Positions 1 through 26,941 of a stretch of 64,000 nt of DNA are shown piece after piece. The stretch spans positions 62,001 to 126,000 of the forward strand of contig NGBS01000009.1 in NCBI GenBank assembly GCA_002245135.1. Reading direction: 5' to 3'. The notes under the pieces were generated by a model, which was not told where the DNA came from, did not search any database, and saw only the letters and a list, made by a program, of their open reading frames with translations. Each line of letters begins with the position of its first letter. The first letter of the stretch is position 1. The DNA comes from Proteromonas lacertae. Its lineage: Eukaryota > Sar > Bigyra > Opalinata > Proteromonadidae. The position numbers and the translations under genes were made by a program.

Positions 1-3000
1 ATAAAGATATAAAAACAACAAATATACCATAATATTTCTAATGATGTTGTTTTACCAGCTCCATTTGGTCCTAACAAGCCAAATATTTCATTTTCTTTTA
101 CTTTTAAACATAAATCTTTAACTGCAGTTTTTGTACTTCCTCTTGATTTAAATATTTTCTTTAAATTCTTTATATAGATCAAATCATCCTTTTCTACTCC
201 TTTCATCACAGAATCATTCAATTGTTTTATATCTTCATCCATATCATCATCTATATCTACTGTTGTAATTCCTTCTTTATCAACTAATTCAGAATATACT
301 TTTTCTTTAGAACAGGTAGGTAACTGTGGAAAATGTATATTATTGATATGAAAATATACTGTAGAATAATCATGAATCATTATAATCATCAATCCAATTA
401 TCAAAAGAATAGTGGAAATAATAAACATCCAATAGAAACATTGGTTAATCTGAAAATCACCATTAATTACATCACTTCCATACTAAAATGAAATATAAAA
501 ATAGAATTATACTGCAAGAAATCCAGTAACAATATGAGCAAAAGCAAATGGTGGTAATAACTGTAAAATAAGTGGATATTCTGTTTCACTAAAAAGAATA
601 TATATACTACAAATATATATACAATTCCATCACATTTGTAACAACAGCTGGAGCAATAAATATAATCAAAGCAAATGATCTTTGAAACTGCTTTACTTCT
701 TATTATTGAGGCAATGAAGAAAATAATACAAACTTGACAGTAAGACCATAAGAAATATGTCAAAAACATCCACAAATAATTCGCTGAATCATAAGCAATT
801 GAACCAACAATTTTACTATGTTTATATATATATATATAATTATTATACTTCAATATTAACAACAATATGCAACTTATAAATGGATAAATGAAACAATATA
901 TGGCATTACCAATAACATATGTTGAAAAATTCAAACCATGTAACTTCATTTGAGGCAATAATCTTCCATTCAATTCTTCAACTATAATTGATAAGCCTGG
1001 AGACATTAACATTAACATTGTTAAAATGGAGAAAACTGATTGTAATTTACCTCCTTCAGGATCATATAAAGGAATATGCTCAAAATCTGGAAATGTGTAA
1101 TATGAAACATCAATAAAACTATCATTTTCTTTATTTAACAGCTATAGAGATTATATTAACAACAAAAAATACTTTATATTGAGAAGCTAAGCCATTATCC
1201 ATCATATTTGCATATATGAATGAATCACATATTGAATATAATTTCAATGAATCAGAAGAGTAAGCATAATAACATTTTGAATCATAATCATTGGATGAAA
1301 TCTGTGTTGGATTCTTACGACTATTTAGATTATATTATAAACACTTATATATATACTAAATTGAATAATCAAAATCGATTCTATTGGATGATTGTTGTAT
1401 TCTGTCAAATTTTAATCCTCCAACTGGATAATTTTCATCCACAATTGAACAAAAATCATTAATTGAATCACAATTGACTTTATTATTTATTGTATTAATA
1501 CCAACTATATTATCTCCTAAAATATCATTGGAATATTTAAAATCAACTTTGAATTTTGTATCAGTATATTCTCCATCTAAATTATCATCAACAATACCAC
1601 TGAAATTCCATGAATCAATACTATCTTTTACAGCAGATGTATCTATTAATATCCTAACTGCATTATTGTCATGACAATTAGTAGATGAATATGCACTAAA
1701 TACAAAAAATATATTAATAAATATACGCTAAAGTACTCTTTATATTGACCCATTTAAATTCATTACGATCATTGTAATGACTATCACATTCGCTATACAT
1801 ATTATCAAACTCTCTTATAAAGTCATCAACATTACAATAATTATTGTGACCCTAATGAATATATACATATGATATGAAAATATATACTCTTCCTTTGCAT
1901 AATGGTGCATCATTGACTTTTGCTCCAACTAAAGCAGATACTAATACAAGAATAACAAAAAAAATAAAGGCACAACAATTACTTTTCTTTGATTTAAGTT
2001 GAATATGAATATTCTTATATAGAATTGCAGCTACTTGAGATGTACAAGTGATATGTGATTGTTTAACCACTGAATTAGCTATATTCATTGCTTTATGAGA
2101 AGTTGATTTTTGGTTTGTTAAATCTTCTTCATTCTTTTTATTGTTTATATCTTGATCTGGAACTCCATTACCATCACCACCTACTTCAATACTTCTACCT
2201 TCAGCGCAATATTGACATACTAAATCAGCTACACCAACACCAATACCATTAGATGTAAATAATGTGACAAAATCAGGTTTATGTCTATTGCATAATGGAC
2301 AAACCATTTCTTTATTCTCTTTATTTCCTTCTTCATTAATTGACTTATCTTTTGAAATTAATTTCATAAATACATCTTCCAATGTTGTACTACTAATACC
2401 CCATTCTTTGATGCCTTTATATGTTTCATTTAAGTCTTTGAGAAAATCTGATAAATGTAACAACAAATTAGTTGGAATTGATATTTCTAAAGTTCCCATT
2501 TTATCATATACTACACTTGCACCAACAAAATGTCTTTTCACTATTACATTCAACTCTTTCACATATTCTTTACTGCAAGTAATTCTAATCAAATAACCAC
2601 TACCAAAATGATTCTTCAAATATAACGGAGTTCCACTTGCTCTAACTCTTCCATCACTCAATACACAGATTTTATCTCCCAAAACATCAGCTTCTTCCAT
2701 TGAGTGAGTAGTCAATAATATAATCTTATTATTCTTTGTTCTTTCAATTAAATCCCATATCATTCTTCTACTTACTGGATCCATTCCAGTTGTTGGTTCA
2801 TCTAAGAATATTATTGATGGATCACCAACTAATGCTAAACCTAATGACAACCTTCTTTTCATTCCACCACTAAATGTTGTTGCATAATGATTTCTTTCAT
2901 TTGATAAATTTATTTCATCTAATAATTTCGATGTTCTATAATCATGTCTGCTTCGAGGAATTCTATGGAATATACACATCAATCTGATATGTTCTTCAGC

Positions 3001-19233: not shown

Positions 19234-20060
19234 ATGACAGATTCAAAAATCCCTCTTGATGTAATGAGTATGATGGGGTTATAACGTATTATATTAAATA
19301 GAGCCATGCAATTTATGTGGCAAGATAATAACTGATTCTGTTTATGTGACATTTAAAGATAAGATTAGTCACAAAGAATGTTTCAAATGCTCAAAATGTG
19401 GAAAATTATTAGATGGACAAGAATTTCAGGTTGAAAGCGTAAAATTCTGTTATTTAATCTTTTTTATAGGATAAATTATACTGCATTGACGATTACAAGA
19501 AGTATTTCTGTAAACATTGTGCAGTTTGCGGAGAGGCTTTAATAGGAAAGTTCTATCCTTGTGGTGATAAATTCTATCATGATAAATGCTTTGTTTGCAA
19601 GGACTGTGGAAAGAGTGTAGTTAGTGGATATAAAGAATCTCCACCAGATGCTGATCATGATGTTGGTATCTTCTGCCCAGATCACTATTACGAACATTTT
19701 GGTGAAATCTGTACTGCATGTGGTAAAAGATGTCATGCACAAGTTGAGATATTGAGGGATTATAAGTACCATCCAGAATGCTTTTCTTGCTGTGTTTGTA
19801 AGAAACATCTTGAAAATGGTGAATTTAAAGTCCAATTTAGTGAAGATAATCAACCTCCAAAGATATATTGTACAGAACACTATGGAGAATTAGTAGCTCC
19901 AAAATGTTGTGGATGTAAAAAGCCTTTGGAAGGAAGTTATGTTACTGCAAATGGAAGTACTTATCATCACGAATGCTTCAAATGTGAAAAATGTGGTAAT
20001 GTCATTGAAAAATCCTATGCTATAGTTGATGGTAAAGTTTGTTGTCCAAATTGTAAGTAG
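19234..20060 (+). CDS. four-LIM-domain protein, copy 1
   Basis: Start MTDSKIPLDVMK, the last residues being joined across a 34-nt intron. It contains four tandem LIM domains with complete zinc ligands: CNLCGK (about 19310), CAVCGEAL, CTACGK and CCGCKKPL, ending CCPNCK-TAG. LIM-only proteins of this layout (FHL/paxillin-like) scaffold actin and adhesion complexes and have no enzymatic activity. A second intron of about 30 nt lies near 19441-19470. A paralogue sits 1.1 kb downstream with a decayed copy between them, so the locus arose by tandem duplication. Confidence 0.9.
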
Positions 20061-21202: not shown

Positions 21203-22108
21203 ATGGGTAATTGTTCTGGTAAAAATGCAACATGTATATATAATTGCTTTTTGATAGTTATATTCACTGTTGAGACTAAAATGAGATGAATTGCCTATTC
21301 TTTAGAATTATATATTTCTATATAATTATATTTTAATAGCTGTATCAGGATGTTCTGTTTGTGGAAAAGAAATAACTGATACAACAGTCATTTCTTATAG
21401 AGACAAGAAATGCCATAAAGCATGCTTTAAATGTTCAAAATGTCACAAGGCCTTAGATTTAAACGGATTTAAAATCAATAATGTATTGTTTAAAAGAAAC
21501 TAATTTTTAATTAGGATAAACTATATTGTGTAGATTGCCATAATAAAGAGAATGGCATGAAATGTGCTGTATGCAAACAACCATTAACAGGTAAATACTA
21601 TCCTTGTGGAGATAAACTCTATCATGAAAAGTGTTTTAAATGCAAAGATTGTGGTAAAAGTGTAGTAGATGGATACAAGGAATCACCTCCAGAAGCTACT
21701 AGTAATATTGGTGTATTCTGCCCCAAACACTATTATGAACATTTTGGTGAAACCTGTACTGCTTGTGGTAAAAAAATTCAAGAAAAAACAACAGCATTAA
21801 AAGATTTTAAATACCATCCTGAATGTTTTGCTTGTTGTATTTGTAAGAAGCAATTGTCTAATGGTCATTATCATACAAAGTATGATGATGAGAAAAAACC
21901 TCCTAAAATATACTGTGATAAACATTATGATGAATTATTTGCACAAAAATGTTGTAAATGTGATAAACCTTTAGATGTGAAATATGTTACAGCTAATGGT
22001 AAAAATTATCATCATAAATGTTTCAAATGCGAGTTTTGTGGTAAAGTGATTGATAGTTCATATACCACAGTTGATAATAAAATATGTTGTCCAAAATGTA
22101 AAAAGTAA
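21203..22108 (+). CDS. four-LIM-domain protein, copy 2
   Basis: Same architecture as copy 1 from 21350 on: CSVCGKEI, CAVCKQPL, CTACGKK, CCKCDKPL, ending CCPKCKK. The intron before the second domain is at about 21490-21515. The first exon is uncertain: ATG at 21203 gives MGNCS joined over an unusually long intron (about 120 nt) to AVSGC, which would create an N-myristoylation-type start absent from copy 1. Strong similarity to copy 1 in domains 2-4 indicates recent duplication with the N-terminus re-formed. Confidence 0.82.
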
Positions 22109-25910: not shown

Positions 25911-26941
25911 TCATAAATTCGACAGGTACAAGCTAAAACTATCATCGTTATTCTTGAGAACAAAAAAATCAGAGTGACTATTTTGGTTATAAATGTTTTA
26001 TATGATTATAATAATAACATACCATCTATTTTCATATAAATATAACAATTTAATATATACTTCTTACATCTAGAATAAAATCAATCAAACTTTAATACTC
26101 TCTAAAAATAGTGTAAATATATGAATAGAAAATACAATCTAAAAAATATGGTTTTGCATTATTATATACATTCTATATAAAGGGTAATAATAATTATTAA
26201 TACGGTCTAATCAATTTAATAAATTATATAATACATACATACTATAAATTAAGTTATATATATATACTCTCTATTATTAAAAGAATATATTAATTTATCT
26301 AAATAAATATATGTTATATACGGTATTAAACAACTATAAATTGATAAAAAATATATATATATAAATAGTTATACATTTCAACTCTATAATATTTATATTA
26401 ACAATATTTATTATACGGTCTATAAATCATATTACAATTTTTTATATTATACATTCTATCAATAATAGATGATAAAAATACTCTTTTGGTCTAACAGATT
26501 AACATAATAATTATTATACTCAAATCCTAATATTCTATTATATATTATTTATTTATATAATTATACTGACTATACATTATAGAATAAGTATTTATACTTG
26601 CTATTACAATAAAACAATTAAAAAATATTACTATATACCATCTACAACATTATATATATTATTATACTTTCTAATAACATAATATTATATTAAAATTAAC
26701 ATACGGACTAAAGAAATGTGAAAATAAGTAAACTTACCATTTTATATATTGAATGGATAACAAATATTCTGCTGCTGATTTATATGATTCAATTGCATCA
26801 TCTCCAATATATTTTGTATCTAATTAACCAGATTAGTTGGTTTAGTGATTATATGATACTAAAATTGAATAAAGAACATTGATCTTGCTCAGCAAATCCA
26901 TCATCCATATCTTGCGAGGAACCATCTGGTATTTCGTCCAT
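25911..26941 (-). CDS. 108-aa zinc-ribbon protein encoded by 22 exons, 14 of them 3 nt long
   Basis: Exons: 26860-26941, 26738-26819, then 19 micro-exons between 26737 and 25978, then 25911-25977. Introns: 26820-26859, 26708-26737, 26671-26704, 26642-26667, 26601-26638, 26570-26597, 26535-26566, 26491-26519, 26456-26481, 26420-26452, 26384-26416, 26334-26374, 26271-26321, 26242-26267, 26207-26238, 26173-26203, 26139-26169, 26102-26135, 26070-26098, 26026-26060, 25978-26022. Each starts GTA and ends TAG. Micro-exons are 3 nt (14 times), 9 nt (3), 12 and 15 nt, and the last 20 introns are all phase 2. The product starts MDEIPDGSSQDMDDG, has an Asp-rich and then helical N-half, and forms CPKC (residues 55-58) and CKKC (84-87). 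CDS totals 327 nt, exactly 109 codons. Function unknown; a zinc ribbon suggests nucleic-acid or protein binding. Confidence 0.88.

Follow-up and report, generated by a model that had tools for sequence, protein, structure and literature searches.

A predicted Proteromonas lacertae gene with twenty tandem phase-2 introns separated mostly by single-codon exons

Genomic context and structure of the array gene

The stretch of Proteromonas lacertae contig NGBS01000009.1 analysed here (64,000 nt; hereafter the window) is AT-rich and gene-dense, with 30 genes reported in a strict gene-finder run, including genes similar to EZH2 (recognised through the Pfam families SET and Ezh2_MCSS), ABCE1, calreticulin, and PP2C. 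Named matches to the ABCE1 product are 64–72% identical and, among the matches listed, include Blastocystis sp. Blastoise (71%) and the red alga Rhodochaete (72%); in a 21-sequence tree built from the window's ABCE1 and 20 of the 120 matches listed, the window sequence groups first with two metagenome proteins (95% and 84% identical), Blastocystis joins next, and the branch to the rest has a support of 96. We note also two adjacent and similar genes at 19234–20060 and 21203–22108 with matching intron phases, which we take to encode LIM-like proteins.

The gene of interest lies on the minus strand, and its features are listed in Table 1. From 26737 to 25978 it is composed of 20 introns of 26–51 nt, all of the form GTA...TAG, with 19 exons between them, 14 of which are 3 nt long. 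The intron lengths are 30, 34, 26, 38, 28, 32, 29, 26, 33, 33, 41, 51, 26, 32, 31, 31, 34, 29, 35, and 45 nt, and the array as a whole contains 664 nt of intron and 96 nt of exon. The original prediction had proposed this parse, with 20 introns, the same exon lengths, and a closing sum of 664 + 96 = 760 nt, and when those exon lengths are fixed and GTA...TAG introns of 20–70 nt are allowed, it is the single solution for the region. Joining the exon blocks (82 + 82 + 96 + 67 nt) yields an open coding sequence of 327 nt that specifies 108 amino acids and a stop codon, with the product MDEIPDGSSQDMDDGFAEQDQCSLFNFNTKYIGDDAIESYKSAAEYLLSIQYIKCPKCNQILGFEPKEIPVEICLIPDIPILECKKCHSDFFVLKNNDDSFSLYLSNL and the cysteine layout C55-x2-C58-x25-C84-x2-C87; the predicted 327-nt open frame and CxxC-x25-CxxC motif are thereby both reproduced. 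The codons of residues 55–60 and 77–83, which had been described as individually interrupted, are each cut after the second codon position, and every one of the 20 array introns is in phase 2; the lone ordinary upstream intron is in phase 1. The array-gene DNA has one match across the assembly, which is the locus itself.

Table 1. Coordinates of the exons and introns of the array gene within the window
Feature	Positions	Strand	Basis or remark
Exon 1, 82 nt, start codon at 26941	26860..26941	-	Spliced-CDS parse
Intron 1, ordinary, 40 nt, phase 1	26820..26859	-	Gene finder, 5 of 5 penalties tried
Exon 2, 82 nt	26738..26819	-	Gene finder
Array: 20 phase-2 introns and 19 exons (3,3,3,3,3,15,9,3,3,9,12,3,3,3,3,3,3,9,3 nt)	25978..26737	-	
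Micro-exon TCC	26705..26707	-	
Micro-exon AAA	26668..26670	-	
Micro-exon ATG	26639..26641	-	
Micro-exon CAA	26598..26600	-	
Micro-exon TCA	26567..26569	-	
Micro-exon, 15 nt	26520..26534	-	
Micro-exon, 9 nt	26482..26490	-	
Micro-exon AAT	26453..26455	-	
Micro-exon ACC	26417..26419	-	
Micro-exon, 9 nt	26375..26383	-	
Micro-exon, 12 nt	26322..26333	-	
Micro-exon AGA	26268..26270	-	
Micro-exon TAT	26239..26241	-	
Micro-exon ACC	26204..26206	-	
Micro-exon AAT	26170..26172	-	
Micro-exon ATT	26136..26138	-	
Micro-exon AGA	26099..26101	-	
Micro-exon, 9 nt, contains Cys84 codon	26061..26069	-	
Micro-exon ATG, with first two letters of Cys87 codon; less certain	26023..26025	-	Rival ending exists
Last exon, 67 nt, and stop codon; less certain	25911..25977	-	Weak zinc-finger match across last junctions

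Comparison of the array introns with other introns of the genome

We assembled a comparison set of 50 genes with 176 introns and 129 internal exons from the window and six other loci; it excludes the array gene, a second array gene described below, and locus L033, which duplicates locus L032. The comparison introns have a median length of 32 nt, with 95% of them no longer than 61 nt and the longest 106 nt (the model has a ceiling of 150 nt, and longer introns cannot be called), and they are distributed among phases 0, 1, and 2 as 71, 65, and 40 respectively, such that phase 2 is the rarest. Internal exons shorter than 25 nt are found only three times among the 129 (4, 5, and 13 nt), and these three could be errors of the model. 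For the array introns, neither length (KS p 0.98) nor splice-site score (p 0.28) departs significantly from the comparison set. A GTAT donor is present in 19 of the 20, and the sole GTAAG donor is that of the first. Outside the array we also observe two presumed leucine-rich-repeat genes, L061 (C1159:51400-53800, minus strand) with all 10 introns in phase 1, and L037:5115-6856 with seven of eight; several of their exons are 84 nt or multiples of this, and these exons are repeat-sized and modular.

Matches to U6, U1, and U2 above the cut-offs are present in the genome, and the U1 match starts ATACTTACCTG. There are two inverted copies of U1 about 6 kb apart (L041 and L042, on C1140) and three copies of U2 on C188 (L058–L060); lower-scoring further matches to U1 and U6 lie on the small contigs C542 (L043) and C597 (L040), and these may be divergent copies or derive from another organism. 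A search for enriched 5-mers near intron 3′ ends revealed no clear branch-point consensus in either the array introns or the others. An origin of the array introns from introners or by tandem duplication was considered and rejected, as their mean pairwise score is 7.67, the same as that of block-shuffled sequences (7.67), although at about 30 nt such a comparison has low power.

Intron retention is buffered less than skipping: if retained singly, 12 of the 20 array introns would introduce an in-frame stop codon, and of the eight others only two have a length divisible by three. Because every exon is a multiple of three and every intron is in phase 2, none of the 190 possible multi-intron skips within the array shifts the reading frame; 26 of them create a stop codon and 164 stay open.

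Chance expectation and coding signal

A frame-blind rule, in which a GTAT is paired with the first TAG at least 24 nt further on, recovers 19 of the 20 array introns in the same parse, with all exon lengths multiples of three; the first intron is invisible to the rule because it begins with GTAA. When the region is shuffled 1000 times with dinucleotides preserved, the largest frame-blind array obtained has five introns, and exon lengths modulo 3 are distributed as 399, 472, and 453 for remainders 0, 1, and 2; in about 109 kb of sequence elsewhere (both strands) the rule finds 23 two-intron arrays and two three-intron arrays, with corresponding counts of 13, 9, and 5. The probability that all 19 exons are multiples of three, at one-third each, is 8.6e-10, and that of 20 phase-2 introns at the background rate of 40/176 is 1.35e-13.

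A codon model trained without the array gene gives the 33 codons that overlap micro-exons a score of +14.5, a value not reached by any of 20,000 null samples built with intronic letters (−29 ± 11) or by any of 20,000 sequences in which the exon letters were shuffled. The two other frames of the same exon letters have negative scores and three stops each, and open frames arise in 1,132 of 50,000 exon-letter shuffles, never with a CxxC-x15-45-CxxC motif. The G+C content is 0.26 in the micro-exons and 0.142 in the array introns. The gene-finder score of the observed sequence is 58.9, a value that none of 400 shuffles reaches (maximum 13.4), with the proviso that the best path behind it differs from the predicted parse in the last two exons; in that path, obtained for the gene in isolation at a penalty of −4, the final two exons measure 2 and 20 nt. 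The strict run (penalty −6, score floor 25) did not report the gene. With the floor lifted, −6 gives a model in which the array is partly distorted, and −5 gives one that lacks the final two introns; from −4 to −2 the whole array is recovered, and the model overruns the stop codon into the next gene.

The predicted product

The 108-residue product contains the two CxxC pairs of a zinc ribbon in the broad sense (C55–C58 and C84–C87), and its zinc-knuckle profile matches touch both pairs, all of them below the curated cut-offs. MJ0042_CXXC (TIGR02098) matches residues 82–94, spanning the last junctions, at 17.7 bits against a cut-off of 20.9 (E 0.0021), and it is accompanied by the NCBIfam profiles YgiT (E 0.0073) and FmdB (E 0.083) and by Yippee-Mis18 (PF03226), with 14.5 bits against a Pfam gathering score of 26.6 (E 0.039). 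The C-terminal motif is probably a zinc knuckle and may bind zinc.

Searching a large protein database with this product returned two candidates, neither with an E-value of 10 or below, and no homologue was found among the PDB sequences; no intron-less orthologue was evident in either the protein database or the organism's own genome. The own-genome search returned three of the gene's own exon stretches and a match on C5 (E 0.077, 30% identity) within a gene (L057, C5:172946-173113, minus strand) that we presume to encode a TAZ-like zinc-finger protein; we take it as a chance or generic CxxC match.

A second array gene and genome-wide scans

A second gene of this type is present on contig C176 (L032:2782-4611), with a near-identical copy, about 1% different, on C651 (L033:2996-4835). 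The gene finder, whose training set contained neither array gene, returned identical models for both copies at each of four penalties, with exons of 244, 153, 138, 111, 463, 3, 9, 9, 3, 3, 3, 30, 3, 3, 12, 3, and 58 nt; the first four introns are in phase 1 and the following twelve are all in phase 2. One of the 12 array introns is longer, at 89 nt. The frame-blind rule sees two arrays here, with exons that are all multiples of three, and the coding score of the array is 14.3, which none of 20,000 shuffles reaches. The 66 possible skips include 13 that create a stop codon and 53 that stay open, and none shifts the frame. The product is 415 amino acids long and the array again covers a cysteine-rich C-terminus, which reads CDGC...CDTC on C651 and has CDTY on C176, with a tyrosine in place of the last cysteine. 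Within the array, the two copies show two differences among 81 exonic positions and two among 448 intronic ones, which is too few to gauge constraint.

None of 6187 candidates from the large protein database matches the 415-residue product with an E-value of 10 or below, and within the organism's own genome it matches nothing but the exons of its two copies on C176 and C651. The knuckles of the two array genes are not demonstrably homologous, as their score is equalled in 227 of 2000 shuffles. Among the 30 exons of both arrays, 21 are of 3 nt, five of 9, two of 12, one of 15, and one of 30 nt; the lack of any 6-nt exon has a probability of about 2e-4 under a geometric model, and was noticed post hoc.

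We scanned the whole assembly (50.2 Mb, 1181 contigs) for closely spaced splice-site patterns, which need GTAT and TAG and miss other ends and spacings. Two consecutive 3-nt exons (3-3) occur at 35 places, 16 of them in array genes (10 in the window gene, three on C176, and three on C651); 3-9 occurs at 11 places, four in arrays; 6-3 at 16 and 4-4 at 20 places, none in arrays, eight of the latter being one simple repeat; and 3-(4..15) at 337 places, about the first hundred of which were itemised. Because backward-read controls exceed the real counts in all five scans, single matches carry no meaning and only chains count; apart from one simple repeat, matches to the 3-3, 3-9, 6-3, and 4-4 patterns are chained only at the two array genes.

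Gene models of eleven other neighbourhoods disclosed no convincing array: five drawn from the 19 other 3-3 places gave none at penalty −6, and of six from the other scans, five places lie between exons of at least 84 nt and one (L066) is without a gene model. Looser models contain one 3-nt and one 2-nt exon in L034 at −4, one 3-nt exon in L037 at −3, and, in a model of L038 at −3 with a score of 15, scattered exons of 3, 6, 11, and 3 nt with mixed phases; we regard the micro-exons of these three loci as loose-model noise.

Alternative explanations

There are several other ways in which this region could be read. It looks low-complexity, and isolated TAGNNNGTAT pairs arise by chance, as the scan controls indicate, so that it might be a chance assembly or an AT-rich, non-coding minisatellite whose TAG and GTAT are spaced as TAG-NNN-GTAT; this is extremely improbable, since shuffled arrays do not exceed five introns, the coding null was not matched in 20,000 trials, and the frame is preserved by the 9-, 12-, and 15-nt exons as well as by those of 3 nt. 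Nor is a repeat unit visible, because the similarity among the array introns does not exceed that among shuffled introns. A second reading is that 25978–26737 is removed as one 760-nt intron (GTAAGT...TAG), which would start at the array's only GTAAG donor and leave the frame open, since the 96 exonic nucleotides lost correspond to 32 whole codons; the resulting 76-residue product has a Pfam match to RRM_Thc1 that is about as weak as the zinc-knuckle matches of the full product (E 0.013, 15.9 bits against a cut-off of 23). We consider it very unlikely: such an intron would be far longer than the 106-nt maximum among the 176 comparison introns, albeit in a model capped at 150 nt, its model scores −4.8 against 56.5 (at penalty −4, the length term being set arbitrarily at −12), and its product has no NCBIfam zinc-finger match. 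It also leaves unaccounted for the coding signal, the exon lengths in multiples of three, the phase lock, the higher G+C of the micro-exons, and the second array gene. More doubtful still is removal of the pieces by DNA elimination, in the manner of ciliate IESs, or their translational bypassing. Segments of 26–51 nt are within the length range of IESs and bypassed sequences, which fits that explanation, but by length and splice score the pieces are ordinary GTAT...TAG introns in a genome with U1, U2, and U6, and the single match of the locus in the assembly, with no second form, counts against DNA elimination.

A once-coding gene that is decaying and no longer expressed would agree with the lack of homologues and with the tyrosine for cysteine difference between the copies of the second array gene, but we find it quite unlikely, as there is no break in the frame, the GTA and TAG ends are present in all 20 introns, the splice scores are ordinary, and the coding score is positive. 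The remaining alternative concerns the end of the gene only. The final two introns (25978–26022 and 26026–26060) are not needed by the gene finder and are the weakest part of the gene model; if the first 18 array introns are real, the frame could instead be read on from 26061, through 26026–26060, to a stop near 26006, without a second CxxC. The gene finder chooses this ending at penalties −6 and −5, and rates it better by 6.2, 4.2, 2.2, and 0.2 units at −6, −5, −4, and −3 respectively. The resulting tail, YILNCYIYMKIDGMLLL, however, resembles the sequence obtained where introns are read through in other parts of the window; this product, like that of the single-intron version, retains none of the NCBIfam zinc-finger matches, and the Yippee-Mis18 match falls from E 0.039 to 0.081. 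The best match of the longer version lies across the disputed junctions, and the C651 copy of the second array gene has a corresponding second CxxC. The last two introns thus rest on the completed CxxC, the zinc-finger matches below cut-off, and the parallel with the second gene, and we judge the shorter ending unlikely.

Splicing of the array and relationship to known micro-exons

The interpretation given in the original prediction, of spliceosomal introns between single-codon exons of a zinc-ribbon-like gene, is the best supported by the sequence, considering the ordinary class of the introns, the coding signal, the zinc-knuckle matches below cut-off, and the second gene; the pure intron definition in strict pairs that it also proposes is inferred. 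The locus is very likely a protein-coding gene for a 108-residue protein with a probable zinc knuckle and 21 ordinary U2-type introns, 20 of them in a tandem array and presumably spliced by intron definition. That prediction had also spoken of exon definition of 14 micro-exons; the 14 three-nucleotide exons stand, but the wording is loose, as the array argues against exon definition. Since two complexes cannot plausibly occupy a 3-nt exon, the array is most naturally read as spliced by intron definition, intron by intron. Each donor would pair with the closest TAG on its 3′ side, some 30 nt away, and the major spliceosome would remove the introns one by one, probably from 5′ to 3′ as the transcript emerges, with each step extending the upstream exon by a codon or a few; no two complexes would then need to share a 3-nt exon. 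Arrays in a single phase may persist because skipping is tolerated in frame.

A stronger proposal is that the spliceosome handles runs of single-codon exons routinely, in a processive 5′ to 3′ manner, within phase-locked genes, which we regard as rather doubtful. If it were true, phase-locked arrays would be error-proof clusters of introns or generators of in-frame variants. In a bolder form, the process of intron gain would itself read the codon frame, given that phase 2, the rarest elsewhere, is shared by all 32 array introns of the two genes.

In the parts of the open-access literature available to us, micro-exons are described singly, in pairs, in a run of three, or in the long-intron MEGs, with no run of single-codon exons; we found no printed case there as extreme as this one, and the closest are the micro-exon genes (MEGs) of Schistosoma. 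MEG exons are given as 6–81 bp in the text and 3–81 bp in the abstract, with 15 bp the usual size, and they are separated by introns that range from 100 bp to nearly 5000 bp. The array gene resembles them in having tandem short exons that are mostly multiples of three (19 of 19 here), but differs in that its exons are mostly single codons, its introns are only 26–51 nt, its array covers a cysteine-rich motif, and it belongs to a protist; the ABCE1 of the window groups with Blastocystis, in a 21-sequence tree that contained no trematode. In plants and animals, the excerpts available describe spliced exons of 1 nt in APC11 and VPS55 (PMC4674806, PMC8831610), and for that of APC11 the authors argue for intron definition and stepwise removal (PMC4674806); also described are a 3-bp exon in Drosophila hth, two adjacent micro-exons of 5 and 12 nt (PMC8831610, PMC11096116), and a cluster of three in RPS24. 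In these sources the micro-exons number one, two adjacent, or three (RPS24), whereas the array gene has 19 in a row. Blastocystis introns have a mode of 30 bp (PMC5608401) or a sharp peak near 32 (PMC3129679), and these ultra-short introns are akin to the comparison introns here. The main text of the Blastocystis paper (PMC5608401) does not contain the word microexon or micro-exon, and the accessible part of a report on Paramecium introns (PMC12862383) does not mention micro-exons.

If transcripts confirm the array, the lower bound on exon size and spacing would fall to runs of single codons, and exon definition would be argued against for such genes, leaving intron-by-intron recognition. The array would also be a test bed for the order of splicing, for whether two complexes can flank a 3-nt exon simultaneously, and for the reason that introns accumulate in one phase. 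Annotation can lose whole domains of this kind, as illustrated by the failure of a strict gene-finder run to report the array gene.
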